In this document: in pieces, positions 42,524-50,018 of the stretch
Numbering within the stretch: the first letter of the stretch is position 1
Layout: each line of letters starts with the position of its first letter
Source of the DNA: Chloroherpetonaceae bacterium
GTDB taxonomy: Bacteria > Bacteroidota > Chlorobiia > Chlorobiales > Thermochlorobacteraceae
Direction of reading: 5' to 3'
NCBI GenBank assembly: GCA_025056565.1
Contig: JANWWA010000016.1
Location: forward strand, 1-64,000
DNA: 64,000 bases
The notes under the pieces: generated by a model
The model's input: the letters and a program-made list of their open reading frames with translations, nothing else
The model's database searches: none
What the model was told of the DNA's origin: nothing
Made by a program: the position numbers and the translations under genes

Positions 42524-45457
42524 ATGAACCCACTATCTGCTGCCTCGCTTTTCTTTTTAGTGCTGCTCTATGCGCTACCGCTTTTCGCGCAAGAAGAAGA
42601 GCGCGCCGATGTTCCCAAAGACCCTATTCTGCGAATAGAGACAGGGATGCACACAGCGATAATTAACAGAATTGGTGTTGACGCAGCGCAGCGTTTTCTC
42701 GTGACAGCTTCGCAGGATAAAACCGTTCGGGTCTGGGACTTAAAGACGCAGCGCTTGCTACGCACGTTGCGTCCGCCGATTGGACTCCACGAAGATGGAA
42801 AACTCTTTTCAGTTGCCATCTCGCCTGACGGCAAGACGGTGGTGTGCGGCGGTTGGACGGGATACGACTGGGACGGAAAGAATTGCATCTATGTTTTTGA
42901 CCGTGAAACAGGCAATTTGGTTCGGCGCATTACGGGCGTGGAAGGCGTTATCAATCACCTGACATTTTCTCGAGACGGGCGATACCTTGCGGCGACTTTG
43001 GGCGGCGGTTTTGGCTTGCGCGTGTATAGCGCTGCAAACTACTCGCTGGTTGCCAGAGATGCAGATTATGGCGGTAGCAGTTACGGCGCTGATTTTGACG
43101 CATCGGGGCGGCTAGTTACCTCGTGCGAAGATGGTTTCATTCGGTTGTATGATGAGCAGCTTAAGCTGAAAGGAAAAGCACGACTCAAAAGCGGCAAAGA
43201 TCCCTTCCAAGTAGCATTTTCACCCGATGGCAAGGTAGTGGCAGTCGGATTTAATGATGCTGCCTGCGTAGAAATCGTAAGCCCTGCACTATTAAACACG
43301 GGTATCACAGGGCTAAACATCACAGTTGGCAAGCCAGAGGGTGACTTCATCTTATCTGCAGTAGCGTGGTCAGCAGACGGCAAGACGCTTTATGCAGCAG
43401 GCACGTTGAGCAATGCAGACAGTCGCAAACTGATTCGTGTGTGGCGCAATGAGAATTCGGCCACAATCAAAGAATGGCTCACCGAATCGTCAAATGTGAT
43501 CACGCAACTCTTACCGCGAAAAGAAGGCGGCATCATTTTTAGCGCTGGTGACCCATGCTTCGGCGCCCTTGATGCCGCAGGCAATAAAGTCTTTCACAAA
43601 GGCGCACTGAACCCAGACTTTCGGGGTATGCACCAGAGTTTTCGCGTTTCTGAGACCGGAGCTATTGTGAATTTTAGCTATGCCTACAACGCAAAGAAAA
43701 TAGCGTCTTTCTTTGTCAATGAGCGCGCCATTGACCAATATGACCCCAAAGCCACAGGAATGTATGCACCCCTGACCGAAGGACTGCCCATTGCAGATTG
43801 GCGAGGCTATGAACCAAAGTGGCGGGGTAAGCCTATTGCGCTCAAAAGTTATGAGCGTTCACTCAGTTTGGCGATTGCGCCCGATAAAAAGTCGTTCTTA
43901 CTGGGCTGCGATTTTTCGCTGCGCCGCTATGATGCCTCTGGCAAGGCCGTCTGGCAAAACTCCGTGCCCGGCGCTGCGTGGGCGGTCAATGTTACGCAGG
44001 ATAACAACTTAGCAGTTGCGGCATTTGGCGATGGCACAATTCGCTGGTTTCGCTATGACGATGGCAAAGAACTGCTGGCTTTCTTTCCTGCAAACGATGG
44101 CAAGCGTTGGATTATCTGGACGCCCGAAGGTTACTACGACGCTTCGGCAGGTGGCGAAAGCCTCATCGGCTGGCATCTCAATCAAGGCAAAGCCAAAGAA
44201 TCGCTCTTTTTCTCCGTTGGGCGCTTTCGCAATAAGTTCTATCGCCCTGATGTAATCGCTAAAGTCTTGGAGACGCTGGATGTGGAAAATGCACTCATCG
44301 CGGCCGATGAAGAGCGCGGAATGAGCAAAAGCCAATCCGAGGCATCACGGCAAAATTTCAAGCTCAATGAGGCTCTGCCGCCTGTGGTGTCTATTCTTTC
44401 GCCTGAGAATGGCGCGGAGGTTTCTTCGTCGCAAGTGTTAGTGCGCTATGCTATAGAGTCGCCGTCCAAAGAAGCGATTGCGGCGGTCAAAATTCTGGTT
44501 GATGGGCGACCTGCTACAAGCACACGTGGCTTGAAAAAATCACTGGCGCAAGGCGTCGTTGAAGAGCAAGCGACGGTAACGATTCCTGAGCGTGACTGCG
44601 AAATTTCCATCGTAGCAGAAAACAAGTTTGCGGCTAGCGAGCCAGCCAGCGTGCGCGTAGCGTGGAAAGGCAAAGCGCCAGCGCAAGATGAATTTGTCGT
44701 CAGGCCGAAACTCTATGCGCTCGTGATTGGCGTGAGCCAGTATCAAGAGTCGTCGTTGCAGTTGAATTTGGCAGCCAAAGACGCGCAGGATTTTGCGCAA
44801 GCGTTGCTGGCTCAAAAAGGCGGGCTGTATCAAGATGTGGTGGTGAAATTGCTGACGGATGAGCAAGCCAGCAAGGATAATGTGCTGGACGGGTTAGAGT
44901 GGTTGCAAAAGGAGGTAACAAGCAAAGATGTGGGTGTGGTGTTCTTTGCAGGACATGGCATCAACGACAACAACGGCACATTTTATCTGATGCCTGTAGA
45001 TGCCAATCCAGAGAAGATTAAGCGCACGTGTTTGGAGTTTAGTCAGTTCAAAACGACGATTGCATCGCTGGCAGGGAAGGTGGTGGTGTTTTTAGATGCA
45101 TGTCATAGCGGCAGTGCAATGGGCGGGGCGCAGCGGCGCAGTGCAGCGGCAGATATTACGCTGGCGGTCAATGAGCTGAGCAGCGCGGAGAACGGGGCAG
45201 TGGTGTTTTCGTCATCGACAGGGCGGCAGTATTCGCTGGAAGATGCAGCTTGGGGCAATGGCGCCTTTACGAAGGCGTTGGTGGAAGGGCTGAGTGGCAA
45301 AGCCGACCTGACTGGCAAGGGCAGGATTACAGTCAATATGCTGGACGTGTTTATTTCGGAACGGGTGAAGGAAATTACCAAAGGCAAACAAACGCCCACG
45401 ACTGTCAAGCCACCGAATGTACCTGATTTTCCAATTGCTGTGAAGATGAAAAAGTAG
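42524..45457 (+). CDS. Exported WD40-caspase (peptidase C14, orthocaspase-like) protein
   Basis: A 977-residue protein with a signal peptide (LFFLVLLYALPLFAQEEE). Residues about 35-560 form WD40-type repeats, for example FLVTASQDKTVRVWDLKT, VAISPDGKTVVCGG, VAFSPDGKVVAVGFND and VAWSADGKTLYAAG. An Ig-like region (about 620-715, PPVVSILSPENGAEV) leads to a C-terminal caspase domain (about 725-975) with LYALVIGVSQYQ, catalytic His811 in FFAGHGIND and catalytic Cys860 in FLDACHSGSA. Relatives are bacterial orthocaspases, Arg/Lys-specific cysteine peptidases. Export to the periplasm is unusual among caspase-like proteins. The last ~750 nt look richer in G. Its target is unknown. Confidence 0.85.
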   Translation: MNPLSAASLFFLVLLYALPLFAQEEERADVPKDPILRIETGMHTAIINRIGVDAAQRFLVTASQDKTVRVWDLKTQRLLRTLRPPIGLHEDGKLFSVAISPDGKTVVCGGWTGYDWDGKNCIYVFDRETGNLVRRITGVEGVINHLTFSRDGRYLAATLGGGFGLRVYSAANYSLVARDADYGGSSYGADFDASGRLVTSCEDGFIRLYDEQLKLKGKARLKSGKDPFQVAFSPDGKVVAVGFNDAACVEIVSPALLNTGITGLNITVGKPEGDFILSAVAWSADGKTLYAAGTLSNADSRKLIRVWRNENSATIKEWLTESSNVITQLLPRKEGGIIFSAGDPCFGALDAAGNKVFHKGALNPDFRGMHQSFRVSETGAIVNFSYAYNAKKIASFFVNERAIDQYDPKATGMYAPLTEGLPIADWRGYEPKWRGKPIALKSYERSLSLAIAPDKKSFLLGCDFSLRRYDASGKAVWQNSVPGAAWAVNVTQDNNLAVAAFGDGTIRWFRYDDGKELLAFFPANDGKRWIIWTPEGYYDASAGGESLIGWHLNQGKAKESLFFSVGRFRNKFYRPDVIAKVLETLDVENALIAADEERGMSKSQSEASRQNFKLNEALPPVVSILSPENGAEVSSSQVLVRYAIESPSKEAIAAVKILVDGRPATSTRGLKKSLAQGVVEEQATVTIPERDCEISIVAENKFAASEPASVRVAWKGKAPAQDEFVVRPKLYALVIGVSQYQESSLQLNLAAKDAQDFAQALLAQKGGLYQDVVVKLLTDEQASKDNVLDGLEWLQKEVTSKDVGVVFFAGHGINDNNGTFYLMPVDANPEKIKRTCLEFSQFKTTIASLAGKVVVFLDACHSGSAMGGAQRRSAAADITLAVNELSSAENGAVVFSSSTGRQYSLEDAAWGNGAFTKALVEGLSGKADLTGKGRITVNMLDVFISERVKEITKGKQTPTTVKPPNVPDFPIAVKMKK

Positions 45458-45525
45458 CCATGAGGCCTTCCCCACCGATGGGCTGAGTGGTAGAAGAAGT
45501 AGGTGGGGCGGTTATAGCATTTTCA

Positions 45526-46776
45526 CTAGGCGCTATCGGTGCGAAATTTGGAGAGCGTGAGTTTCAGGAGTGCTCTGGCGGCTTCTTTCTTAGACATAAG
45601 CGGCAATGCGTGCTGCTCGCCTGTGCGAGAGAGAAGTGTGAGGCGGTTGGTGTCGACCTCAAAACCAGCGTTGGGGTCATTGGCGCAGTTGAGCGCAATC
45701 CAGTCCAGATTTTTCTTTTCAAGTTTGGCTCTGGCATTTTCGAGCGCATGACTGGTCTCTAATGCAAATCCAATAGCAATTTGATGCGCTCTCTTTTGTT
45801 GCCCGAATTCTAAAAGGATGTCTGGATTTTTGACCAGTGTGAGCACGAGTCGGTCGCTATCTTTCTTGAGCTTTTGCGGTGCGATATGTTCAGGGCGATA
45901 ATCGGCGACCGCAGCTGCCGCAATGAAAACATCGCATCGCTCAAAATAAGCGTGTGCCGCTGCCAGCATTTCTTCGGCGCTTTCGACATCAATGCGCTCC
46001 ACATTAGGTGGGGTTGGCAAGGGCGTTTTCCCTGTAATCAAGATAGTCTTTGCACCCCACTCAGCAGCTGCCTCTGCCAGTGCGAAGCCCATTTTACCAG
46101 TTGAAAAATTGGAGATAAAGCGCACAGGGTCAAGGCGCTCACGCGTTGCGCCGGCTGTTACGACAATGCACTTTCCCGCAAGCCATTTTGACGCAGAGGT
46201 CTCGAAAACCTCAGCGATATGCTTAAAAAGCGTCTCTGGCTCTGGTAAGCGACCCTTACCTATCAAGCCTGAGGCTAACTCGCCATATTCAGGTTCAATG
46301 ATGATGCACCCATCTTGTCGCAGCAAAGCTAAGTTGCGTTGCACTGCAGGCGCGCTAAGCATCTCGCCATCCATTGAGGGAAAAATGAGGCGTGGGCGTT
46401 CAGGTCGCAGCGCAAGAAAGAGCACACTGAGCATATCATCGCTGAGGCCATGTGCAAGTTTGGCGAGCGTGTGAGCCGTTGCAGGAGCAACTACGAACAT
46501 ATCTGCCCATTCACCTAAGCGAATATGCTCCGTCCAATCTTGTTTGGCATCGTGCGTGGGAAAAATGTCGCAGAGCACTTTGCGCTGTGAAAGTGTCTCA
46601 AGTACCGCAGGAGTGACAAACTCCTTTGCACGCTGGGTCAGAACCACTTGCACGTCTGCACCTGCTTTTTTGAGCAAACGCACAAGCAGTGGTAGCTTGT
46701 AGGCAGCAATGCCCCCTGAGATGCCTAATAGAATGTGCTTGCCGTGCAGCGCATTTAAGGTATCGTGGTGACTCAC
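45526..46776 (-). CDS. coaBC: Bifunctional phosphopantothenoylcysteine decarboxylase/phosphopantothenate-cysteine ligase
   Basis: A 416-residue enzyme of coenzyme A synthesis. The N-terminal CoaC flavodoxin-like domain has [34 protein letters not shown] with the active His region, and a PSMDGEML variant of the usual PAMNxxM. The C-terminal CoaB domain begins [20 protein letters not shown], then [17 protein letters not shown] and a late KKLDW-like [15 protein letters not shown]. The start is GTG at 46776, which overlaps the stop of the third PIN toxin gene by 4 nt (GTGA). No other start is close, so translation of this essential enzyme appears coupled to the toxin-antitoxin array. Confidence 0.9.
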
Positions 46777-46893
46777 TGTGGTTCAATGCGTTTAAGGTCA
46801 GTGCGGTCAAAGTCTGCATCAAAACTTACCAGCTCCAAGCCGTGCTTCTTTGCCAGCGTGTATTGATACGCATCGTCAAAATCTAAGCCCCAT
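46772..46893 (-). repeat. TA-array repeat, copy 1 (toxin 3' end only)
   Basis: 122 nt encoding the end of the third toxin, identical to the matching part of copy 3 (47981-48102). The repeat stops at the coaBC start, where copies 2 and 3 continue into an antitoxin. Confidence 0.9.
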
Positions 46894-47156
46894 CTGAAAA
46901 TGTTGTGTGTCAAAGCGCCAAAATCCTCAGGCATAAGTGCCAAGATGCGAATGCCTGCACGATTTAAGTCTTGCCCGAACTGTGCAAGCTCGCTGAGCTT
47001 GTTTGACCAGAAGAGTTTTAGCCCGATGCTATCGAGCGAGTAGTTTGAAAGAAAGAGCGTGCCCAAGTCTTGCGAAGTAATGTATTCAACGGCAGCTTGC
47101 GCCTTCTCTTGCTCCAAGAGAATCTCGAGGAAGATGTTCGTATCAAGCAGCTTCAT
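46773..47156 (-). CDS. PIN-domain toxin, third pair of the array
   Basis: A 127-residue VapC-like PIN ribonuclease, predicted to cleave RNA when free of its antitoxin. The first acidic site is in MKLLDTNIFLEILLEQ; the C-terminal third, from GLDFDDAYQY to the final [10 protein letters not shown], is identical to the other two toxins and contains DFDDA and SFDADFD acids. The middle (about 15-85) differs from its siblings. The frame extends to 47234, but the ATG at 47156 is right because it overlaps the antitoxin stop by 4 nt. Its own stop overlaps the coaBC GTG. Confidence 0.88.
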   Translation of the reverse strand: MKLLDTNIFLEILLEQEKAQAAVEYITSQDLGTLFLSNYSLDSIGLKLFWSNKLSELAQFGQDLNRAGIRILALMPEDFGALTHNIFRWGLDFDDAYQYTLAKKHGLELVSFDADFDRTDLKRIEPQ

Positions 47157-47371
47157 TTCGCGCCTCTTCGCTCTAAAATTTCCTTTTGCGCTTCTAATGC
47201 GGTTTGTTTCAGCTCTTTCAAGCAACCACGCCACGAAAAGCTCATACTAACTTTTGGCGATTTTTGGAGGGCTTCCTTCCAAGCAAGAAACTCAATGAAG
47301 TCCAGTGTTTCTTGCTGGTGCTGTGGGGAGAGTTGTCGTGCTTTTTCGGTGATTTGTTCCAGAAGGCTCAT
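47153..47371 (-). CDS. DUF2281-type antitoxin, third pair of the array
   Basis: A 72-residue antitoxin partner of the PIN toxin. The first 29 residues (MSLLEQITEKARQLSPQHQQ, then ETLDFIEFL) are identical to the other two antitoxins of the array and match the DUF2281 pattern. The tail (AWKEALQKSPKVSMSFSWRG, then a helix) is specific to this pair and is the part expected to bind the toxin. It lies 3 nt after the stop of the second toxin and overlaps its own toxin by 4 nt. Confidence 0.85.
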   Translation of the reverse strand: MSLLEQITEKARQLSPQHQQETLDFIEFLAWKEALQKSPKVSMSFSWRGCLKELKQTALEAQKEILERRGAK

Positions 47372-47482
47372 TGCTCACTGTGGTTCAATGCGTTTAAGGT
47401 CAGTGCGGTCAAAGTCTGCATCAAAACTTACCAGCTCCAAGCCGTGCTTCTTTGCCAGCGTGTATTGATACGCATCGTCAAA
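47292..47482 (-). repeat. TA-array repeat, copy 2 (antitoxin 5' end plus toxin 3' end)
   Basis: 191 nt identical to 47899-48089. It holds the antitoxin-3 N-terminus, the 3-nt junction and the toxin-2 C-terminus. Confidence 0.92.
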
Positions 47483-47755
47483 GTCCAAATTCCACTGGTC
47501 GCTATAGGCAATGAAAGCTGCGATGTCTGCATCCTGCAAATAAAGCCTCGTAACACGGTTGCGGCGCAAGTCTTCACAAAAACTTTGCCAAAGTGCTTTG
47601 CGCTTTACGGCAAAAAGCTTAAGCCCAATTGAGTTCAGCGAGAACTCTGAGATATACAGTGAGCCCTTGGGCTGTGCTTGCAGGAAATTTCTGGCGGCTT
47701 GCTCCTTTTTCTGGGCAAGCAGCACTTCCAGAAAGACATTGGTATCAACGAGCAT
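47375..47755 (-). CDS. PIN-domain toxin, second pair of the array
   Basis: A 126-residue VapC-like PIN ribonuclease. It starts MLVDTNVFLEVLLAQKKEQA, with the first catalytic Asp at position 4. The middle region includes ISEFSLNSIGLKLFAVKRK and differs from the siblings. From LDFDDAYQY the protein is identical to the other two toxins to the end. The ATG lies 1 nt after the antitoxin stop, a slightly different junction from the 4-nt overlaps of pairs one and three. Confidence 0.88.
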   Translation of the reverse strand: MLVDTNVFLEVLLAQKKEQAARNFLQAQPKGSLYISEFSLNSIGLKLFAVKRKALWQSFCEDLRRNRVTRLYLQDADIAAFIAYSDQWNLDFDDAYQYTLAKKHGLELVSFDADFDRTDLKRIEPQ

Positions 47756-47756
47756 A

Positions 47757-47978
47757 CTAGTCTGTTCTAAGCCACAGTTCTTTCAGCTCTGCTTTAAGTT
47801 CGTCAGCAGTTTGATGAAGCTCTTTAAGTCCGCCAGCCCAAGCAAAGCTCCATTCGCTGGGCTCGCTATCTTGTTGCATTTCTTTTGCAAGCAAGAATTC
47901 AATGAAGTCCAGTGTTTCTTGCTGGTGCTGTGGGGAGAGTTGTCGTGCTTTTTCGGTGATTTGTTCCAGAAGGCTCAT
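47757..47978 (-). CDS. DUF2281-type antitoxin, second pair of the array
   Basis: A 73-residue antitoxin. The N-terminal 29 residues are the same as in the other two antitoxins. The tail (LAKEMQQDSEPSEWSFAWAG, then GLKELHQTADELKAELKEL) is distinct, although the WSFAWAGGLKEL pattern parallels SFSWRGCLKEL and SCSWRGALSEL in the siblings. It starts 3 nt after the first toxin stop. Confidence 0.85.
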   Translation of the reverse strand: MSLLEQITEKARQLSPQHQQETLDFIEFLLAKEMQQDSEPSEWSFAWAGGLKELHQTADELKAELKELWLRTD

Positions 47979-48102
47979 TGCTCACTGTGGTTCAATGCGT
48001 TTAAGGTCAGTGCGGTCAAAGTCTGCATCAAAACTTACCAGCTCCAAGCCGTGCTTCTTTGCCAGCGTGTATTGATACGCATCGTCAAAATCTAAGCCCC
48101 AT
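47887..48102 (-). repeat. TA-array repeat, copy 3 (antitoxin 5' end plus toxin 3' end)
   Basis: 216 nt. The central 191 nt are identical to copy 2, the toxin part matches copy 1, and the antitoxin part extends further into copy 4. Confidence 0.92.
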
Positions 48103-48368
48103 TTGGAAATACTCTCTTCGAGGAGTAAATACTCACTTGGCATTAAGCCTAATACATTTAGGTTAGAGCTCACCAAATCCTGAACAAATTGGCGGAAGAC
48201 ATTCATTTTCTTCTGCCTATGTAGGATAATGCCAATAGAATCCAGAGAGAATACCGAGCAACAAAGGTAGCGAGCGGAGCGTGCCTTCAAGAAATGCTCA
48301 GCTGCATCAGCTTTTTGCTGCTCACACAGCACTTCCAGAAACACATTTGTGTCGACTAAATACTTCAT
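47982..48368 (-). CDS. PIN-domain toxin, first pair of the array
   Basis: A 128-residue VapC-like PIN ribonuclease beginning MKYLVDTNVFLEVLCEQQKA. The core has CCSVFSLDSIGIILHRQKK and then a pair-specific segment to SISKWGLDFDDAYQY, after which it is identical to the other toxins. The ATG overlaps the antitoxin stop by 4 nt. The next antitoxin start lies 3 nt after its TGA. Confidence 0.88.
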   Translation of the reverse strand: MKYLVDTNVFLEVLCEQQKADAAEHFLKARSARYLCCSVFSLDSIGIILHRQKKMNVFRQFVQDLVSSNLNVLGLMPSEYLLLEESISKWGLDFDDAYQYTLAKKHGLELVSFDADFDRTDLKRIEPQ

Positions 48369-48583
48369 TCCTTACTAACTCTCCAATCCATCACCTTCTT
48401 TTGCAATTCAAGCGAGCTATGATACTGCTGTCTAAGCTCTGACAGGGCGCCACGCCAAGAACAAGATAACCTTCGCTCTGCAGATGTTCTGGCAAGCAAG
48501 AATTCAATGAAGTCCAGTGTTTCTTGCTGGTGCTGTGGGGAGAGTTGCCGTGCTTTTTCGGTGATTTGTTCCAGAAGGCTCAT
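48365..48583 (-). CDS. DUF2281-type antitoxin, first pair of the array
   Basis: A 72-residue antitoxin that heads the array. Its first 29 residues match the other two antitoxins exactly, and its tail (ARTSAERRLSCSWRGALSEL, then QQYHSSLELQKKVMDWRV) is its own. The start lies 25 nt after the ychF stop. No separate promoter is obvious in this gap, so the array may be read through from ychF. Confidence 0.85.
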   Translation of the reverse strand: MSLLEQITEKARQLSPQHQQETLDFIEFLLARTSAERRLSCSWRGALSELRQQYHSSLELQKKVMDWRVSKE

Positions 48584-48584
48584 T
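48492..48584 (-). repeat. TA-array repeat, copy 4 (antitoxin 5' end only)
   Basis: 93 nt encoding the antitoxin-1 N-terminus; one base differs from copies 2 and 3 (GCC versus GTC around 48548). Sequence beyond the start codon is unrelated. Confidence 0.9.
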
Positions 48585-48608
48585 TAAACCATTGCGTTTA
48601 GTGAAATC

Positions 48609-49700
48609 TTACACGTTGAAACGAAAGAGCATAATATCCCCATCTTGCACAATGTAATCCTTGCCTTCAATCGCTAACTTACCAGCCTCTCTAACTTTCT
48701 GTTCAGAGCCAAATCGCAGTAAATCTTCATACTTCATTACTTCGGCGCGAATAAAGCCCTTCTCAAAATCAGAGTGTATCACGCCAGCTGCCTCAGGAGC
48801 TTTTGCACCTTTGCGGATTGTCCACGCATGCACCTCCTTTTCTCCAGCCGTGAAGTAAGTCTGAAGACCCAGAAGGTCATAGGCAGCACGAATAATTTTG
48901 TCTAAGCCAGACATGTCCAAACCGAGCGATGCCAAGAACTCTGGTTTTTCATCTTCAGGAAGTTGTGCAATTTCTGCCTCGAGCTTGGCGCAAACAACAA
49001 TGACTTTCGCACCTTCTTTGGCTGCTACTTCTTCCACTTGTCTTGTGTAAGCATTTCCAGTAAGCAAATCAGTTTCACTCACATTTGCGACATACAGCAC
49101 TGGCTTTGAGGTAAGTAGAAAAAGTGATTTCAGCAGTAAGGTGGCTTCCTCTGTCTCAGCAGCCAGTCGAGCAGGTTTGCCTTCGCCAAGCAAGGTGAGA
49201 ACTTTCCGAACCAGTGCAAGCTGCGGCTCGAGTTTTGCGTCTCGTTTGGCGTCTTTTTCTAACTTGGGTAGACGCTTTTCGAGCGATTCCAAATCTGCAA
49301 GGATAAGTTCCGTTTCTATGGTCTCAATATCGCGCTTCGGATTAACAGAGCCATCAACATGGACAATATTCGGATCATCAAAGCAGCGAACCACGTGAAT
49401 CAACGCATCGACCTCGCGGATGTGTGAGAGGAACTTGTTTCCCAATCCCTCTCCTTTTGAAGCCCCGCGCACTAAACCCGCAATGTCTACAATCTCTAAG
49501 GTAGCGGCAACAATTTTGTTAGTCCTGACAATTTTTGCCAGCTCCTGCAAGCGCTTATCAGGCACAGCCACTGTGCCAACATTCGGCTCAATCGTGCAAA
49601 ACGGATAATTCTCAGCGTCAACTTGCTGCGCTGTAATCGCATTAAACAGCGTGGACTTACCTACATTTGGAAGCCCTAAAATTCCAGCACGAAGCGACAT
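48609..49700 (-). CDS. ychF: Redox-regulated ATPase YchF (OLA1 family GTPase-fold)
   Basis: A 363-residue P-loop protein, normal length. G1 is [20 protein letters not shown], followed by [17 protein letters not shown] (switch region), [17 protein letters not shown] (G3) and YVANVSETD, the NxxE variant of G4 that favours ATP over GTP. The C-terminal TGS-like domain ends [11 protein letters not shown]. YchF binds ribosomes and influences stress responses. The toxin-antitoxin array begins 25 nt downstream in the same direction. Confidence 0.96.
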
Positions 49701-50018
49701 AGTTTCCTTTGAGCGTTACTTGAAGGAAAGGGCTAAGTTACAAAATCTCATAAGTAACTGCGAGTTTGAGGACAAGTTACATCGCAGAGATAGGAGAGTG
49801 AAAGTAGAACGGGCAGAAGAGCCGTGGAAACGCCAAGCACTTCGAACTATCCCCTTTCACACAAGAAGCGAACAGCACTGCGGTAGTGACTGCACTATGA
49901 GGAAACTTTCGCCCTGCCTTATGCTGAACGCGCTCCGCAGTAAGAAGGTGAAGCGAAAAACAAAGTTTGCTTTGCTGCAGCGTTTCTGCCCCTCAGAGCA
50001 CAGTGACGTAGAGAGCAA
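49701..50018. other. Gene-free spacer
   Basis: 318 nt between ychF and the TPR lipoprotein gene, both on the minus strand; it should contain the ychF promoter. A plus-strand open frame spans it but also runs over both neighbours and shows no family likeness. I see no tRNA, terminator or repeat. Confidence 0.5.

Follow-up and report, generated by a model that had tools for sequence, protein, structure and literature searches.

The window, that is, the whole 64,000-nucleotide stretch of DNA that was analysed, comes from a member of the Chlorobiales related to the green sulfur bacteria and carries three VapBC-like pairs, each made of a DUF2281 antitoxin and a PIN toxin, which lie head to tail on the minus strand in the interval between ychF (Obg-like ATPase, 48609-49700, minus strand, the upstream flank) and coaBC (45526-46776, minus strand, the downstream flank). 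Unit A consists of antitoxin A (48365-48583; 72 aa, with residues 1-29 forming the common head and the remainder a variable tail) and of the VapC-like toxin A (47982-48368; 128 aa), whose start overlaps the antitoxin stop. Unit B is made of antitoxin B (47757-47978; 73 aa) and toxin B (47375-47755; 126 aa), and unit C of antitoxin C (47153-47371; 72 aa) and toxin C (46773-47156; 127 aa), the stop of which overlaps the GTG start of coaBC at 46773-46776 (CAGTGAGTC). All six reading frames are intact, and they match Pfam DUF2281 (E 7e-11 to 1e-9) or PIN (E 2e-15 to 7e-13) as expected from the initial annotation of three head-to-tail pairs. The antitoxin and toxin frames overlap by 4 nt in units A and C and are separated by a 1-nt gap in unit B, and consecutive units lie about 3 nt apart. 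With genes overlapping or nearly touching throughout, the array is thus a tightly packed gene run.

Scans for promoters and terminators around the array returned little beyond chance, and three "terminator" predictions near it correspond to the repeated toxin end. As its start overlaps the toxin C stop, coaBC, a gene of coenzyme A synthesis, may have its translation coupled to that of toxin C. Near the array lies a 977-aa ORF (42524-45457), which by eye resembles WD40 repeats with a caspase-like peptidase domain behind them.

Identical ends and diverged cores

The three units share their ends and differ in their cores. The junction block at 47899-48089 (minus strand, 191 nt; toxin A 3' end plus antitoxin B head) recurs with 100% identity at 47292-47482 (minus strand, 191 nt; toxin B 3' end plus antitoxin C head), exactly as the initial annotation had it. 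As each toxin end adjoins the next antitoxin head, both form a single repeated block. The array is bordered on the minus strand by half-blocks, namely the antitoxin A head at 48504-48584 (81 nt, 99%) and the toxin C end at 46772-46880 (109 nt, 100%), and no further copy was found in the 2.9-Mb genome beyond both junctions and the two half-blocks. Between them lie, also on the minus strand, core A (48090-48503, 414 nt), core B (47483-47898, 416 nt), and core C (46881-47291, 411 nt), each covering an antitoxin tail and the N-terminal two thirds of a toxin. The cores align poorly with one another; their divergence had been correctly noted, and their lengths (411-416 nt) are slightly larger than the 390-410 nt first given.

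When codons for the same residue are compared between pairs of units, the codon is identical in 62/65, 60/65, and 62/66 cases in the ends, but only in 20/43, 18/52, and 9/48 cases in the cores. High similarity of the cores as well, which the initial annotation had named as evidence against its own reading, is not observed (identical codons at 9-20 of 43-52 positions). As the ends are almost identical at synonymous positions too, protein constraint does not explain why they are common to the three units.

Residues 1-29 of the antitoxin are identical in protein across A, B, and C. Sameness at the DNA level, claimed earlier for this whole head, does not extend to its last few codons in antitoxin C, which differ synonymously: strict DNA identity covers about 26 codons in comparisons with C and about 31 codons, with one mismatch, between A and B. 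The corresponding claim for the last ~35 toxin residues stands, with 35 codons identical in all three units and 39 between A and C. The borders of identity thus vary by pair, the antitoxin head being longer for A/B and the toxin end four codons longer for A/C, which is the pattern expected of separate exchange tracts.

The ychF-coaBC site in related genomes

Relatives were compared with one genome per species. In the other two genomes of the same genus (G001 and G002), coaBC directly follows ychF and the toxin is absent, so the array was either acquired in the present genome or lost from those two. Units of the same family also occur singly, directly downstream of ychF and with other genes behind, in two more distant genomes, the Chloroherpetonaceae MAG G007 and the Chlorobiales MAG G010, and the latter carries a second unit elsewhere (C144). 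Toxin fragments at the ends of two contigs gave the G007 locus the look of a broken array, but these ends overlap and, once joined, contain just one unit with another gene behind it. The presence of an A-type unit beside ychF in G010, and of a B-type unit at that place in G007, would be in keeping with an older array that underwent differential loss. No relatives were found in viral contigs or plasmids. A Thermococcaceae MAG (L028:5998-6381) encodes a PIN toxin with 50% identity, together with a DUF2281-like antitoxin that has a tail similar to core type A, possibly through transfer between bacteria and archaea or through a binning error.

Separate histories of ends and cores

Only six close units are known, with one foreign relative per core type: A, B, and C from the window, D (G010, C144), E (G010, next to ychF), and F (G007, next to ychF). 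In a tree of the cores of 15 units, core B groups with F (support 96/94), core C with D (98/94), and core A, weakly, with E (80/77). A clade uniting cores A, B, and C is rejected (p-AU 0.0014; 0.0005 for the toxin core alone). This group had been named in advance, and the B-F and C-D affinities had been spotted by eye in the alignment, ahead of any tree building. In the tree of the ends, forcing A, B, and C together gives p-AU 0.26, so that such a clade is compatible with the data and unproven, these near-identical short sequences holding little signal.

Among the six close units, identities of the antitoxin tail are correlated with those of the toxin core (r=0.85, exact Mantel p=0.0014), and no such relation exists between the head and the tail of the antitoxin (r=0.05), as a cassette model predicts. 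When pairs from within the array are left out, the tail-core correlation persists (r=0.87) and that between antitoxin head and toxin end is lost (r 0.22), the latter thus resting on the array itself. These results support the view that ends and cores differ in history, with core types crossing species and ends alike within the array, and that antitoxin tail and toxin core travel jointly as one matched block. The cassette reading put forward in the initial annotation holds in these two respects (p-AU 0.0014; r=0.85); equal divergence along the whole length among relatives, which it had listed as a counter-indication, is not what we see, since ends and cores diverge differently. As the core clade is rejected, the cores most simply predate the split from G007 and G010, or came separately by transfer. 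Judged from their sequences, they are not recent duplicates; the likeness of the A, B, and C ends would most simply be recent, and the cores older or separately transferred.

Matches to the DUF2281 model in many genomes often cover the head only (about positions 1-34) or the tail only (about 31-64), which suggests a family of two separable modules.

Alternative explanations

One alternative is that a unit was duplicated in tandem in the ordinary way and that the cores then evolved fast or diversified. This has precedents, as antitoxin/PIN tandem duplication is described in PMC2701414, for example for COG2880/PIN in Archaeoglobus fulgidus. Here, however, cores B and C each stand nearer to a unit of another genus than B does to C (the A+B+C clade being rejected at p-AU 0.0014), and synonymous sites are saturated in the cores, unlike in the ends, which makes this account improbable. 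We also give little credence to the idea that the ends are kept identical by selection on DNA or RNA, e.g. on a junction operator or coupling element, without any recombination. The block does cover the toxin stop and the antitoxin start, a possible place of regulation, but identity reaches synonymous sites across 35-39 toxin and 26-31 antitoxin codons, and same-family heads in G007 and G010 reach only 48-65% likeness at the protein level, so that such a DNA sequence is not conserved in the family.

Mis-assembly could in principle have made both the repeat and the copy number, since short-read assemblers have difficulty with exact 191-nt repeats and this genome consists of 75 contigs. Nonetheless, the array is bordered by half-blocks only, which fit ychF and coaBC, none of the six ORFs is broken, and, as the three cores differ, a single unit order would fit the repeat graph. 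An error could concern only how many exact copies of unit B there are, and we consider an artefact very improbable.

Shared-end arrays in other lineages

Comparable designs occur elsewhere. In G261, a distant genome of the same phylum, two tandem DUF2281/PIN units have differing cores (L087:1323-3061), a 246-nt block that is 85% alike (toxin 3' end plus downstream spacer), and leaders that are 93% alike. A short insertion truncates the toxin of the first unit after the conserved stretch LDFDDAYQYT. The junction repeats of G261 also hold, in degraded form, the first part of the gene that lies downstream.

In some Chlorobiaceae, the repeated block combines a DUF2281 antitoxin with the 3' end of a 138-aa gene, with different genes between copies (loci L113-L119, array strand, in G014, G018, G291, G175, G376, G368, and G159). 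Cassette number and core type vary among species at this site, and the cores can be non-homologous: G014 has DUF4160+DUF2442 and a PIN toxin, G291 DUF4160+DUF2442 and another DUF2442, and G368 DUF4160+DUF2442 and a putative addiction-module pair. G014 and G291 have DUF4160 cores that are 96% alike but adjoining antitoxins that are 84% alike, so that here too the locus is a mosaic. Likeness among antitoxin copies amounts to 86-89% within a genome and to 79-87% between genomes and, to judge from the sequences, homogenisation is weak in these arrays. The 3' end of the 138-aa gene looks like a hot spot for toxin-antitoxin cassettes.

Variation of unit number and core type at related loci, which the initial annotation had proposed to look for, is thus present, G261 and the Chlorobiaceae differing at shared ends. 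These loci are analogous to the window array and do not prove its mode of evolution. That shared-end cassette arrays arose recurrently and independently in several lineages, storing and exchanging matched specificities at fixed chromosomal sites (downstream of ychF and, in Chlorobiaceae, at the end of the 138-aa gene) by recombination in coding ends that would add, drop, or swap whole cores, is a tentative proposal that we find rather doubtful for now.

The toxins and a possible mechanism

A sequence search returned no homologue of known structure for the toxin, and a fold search was required. With the AlphaFold model of toxin A (pLDDT 95), the top matches are VapC proteins (TM 0.76-0.85), the best being 4xgq, VapC20 (TM 0.85). 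In all six close units, the motif-2 Glu of the PIN domain is replaced by Ser, the motif having been assigned by eye. Of the acidic residues, four of which are conserved and catalytic in PIN domains, D6, D93/D95/D96, and D114/D116/D118 are invariant in these units, with the placing of D95/D96 and their neighbours calling for a metal-bound structure. Given the Ser, toxin catalysis should not be assumed from sequence. Known VapBC complexes have the tail of the antitoxin wrapped around the toxin; by analogy, the core would hold the recognition surfaces, and we infer a toxin-antitoxin specificity particular to each core.

Altogether, we consider it probable (about 0.75) that the three VapBC-like type II modules form a tandem array in which homologous recombination takes place in the coding ends and matched cores are retained. 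Each unit has its matched core, made of the antitoxin tail and the N-terminal two thirds of the toxin, between shared ends, an antitoxin head and a toxin C-terminus, and homologous recombination in the blocks, through unequal crossover, unit capture or loss, and gene conversion, would leave the ends alike and the cores distinct. A crossover between two junction blocks would add or remove a whole unit with frames intact, gene conversion would keep the ends alike, and incoming DNA of the same family would be taken up at the ends, bringing its matched core. The recombination events, and their dependence on RecA, are what we infer from these patterns.

How a new toxin-antitoxin specificity can arise without an unneutralised intermediate is an open question, for which such an array offers a concrete route: with breakpoints in the constant ends, recombination tends to exchange matched toxin-antitoxin halves. 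This route is testable by chimaeras made at natural breakpoints. Moreover, as the parts of one small gene can differ in history, whole-gene trees of toxin-antitoxin families are misled.

Comparison with known systems

The units have the make-up of VapBC modules, with a PIN toxin of about 130 aa and a small antitoxin gene directly upstream, overlapping or adjacent. VapBC toxins act as RNases that their antitoxins neutralise, and the complexes regulate their own expression. The interval 45500-50000 contains no inverted repeats of at least 18 nt and the array repeats are coding, unlike what an integron array with its attC hairpin sites and integrase would show, and no integrase was recognised among the ORFs adjoining the array. 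Neither was a secretion or delivery domain of polymorphic toxin or CDI systems, the six proteins (72-128 aa) having only DUF2281 or PIN above Pfam cut-offs. The array has no PADLOC match for anti-phage defence.

In polymorphic toxin-immunity cassettes (CDI), the toxins are secreted and have a constant N-terminus. CDI orphan modules (PMC3482391) similarly combine a constant part with a variable specificity part kept with the matching immunity gene; the present module is intracellular, has both ends constant, and has a core that spans two genes. Among the closest described modules is ssl0385/sll0205 of Synechocystis 6803, a VapBC module with a DUF2281 (COG5559) antitoxin and a PIN toxin (PMC4963859). 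Both families, the order with the antitoxin first, and the small adjacent genes are alike, but here three tandem units have shared ends at the DNA level and the motif-2 Glu is changed to Ser; the word "tandem" does not occur in PMC4963859. For TAS islands, Makarova et al. 2009 (PMC2701414) report COG2880/PIN tandem clusters in Archaeoglobus and propose duplication or cassette-like transfer. Several pairs lie close together there too, and the passages on these clusters describe no design of shared ends and variable cores. Partner swapping in Panacea/NetFlax (PMC8832971, PMC10440598) resembles the present case in modular exchange of toxin partners around a constant antitoxin domain; there, whole domains are exchanged at the network level and no tandem array with junction repeats is involved, and the words "recombination" and "tandem" are absent from PMC10440598.

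The shared-end design was unfamiliar in the initial annotation and, likewise, our search of the open-access literature yielded no account of tandem pairs whose constant ends recombine and whose matched cores cross species. Precedents exist for DUF2281/PIN pairs, for tandem toxin-antitoxin clusters, and for partner swapping (PMC4963859, PMC2701414, PMC8832971, PMC10440598); set beside them, the window locus is a tandem array of VapBC type in which the ends are homogenised and the cores are trans-species.
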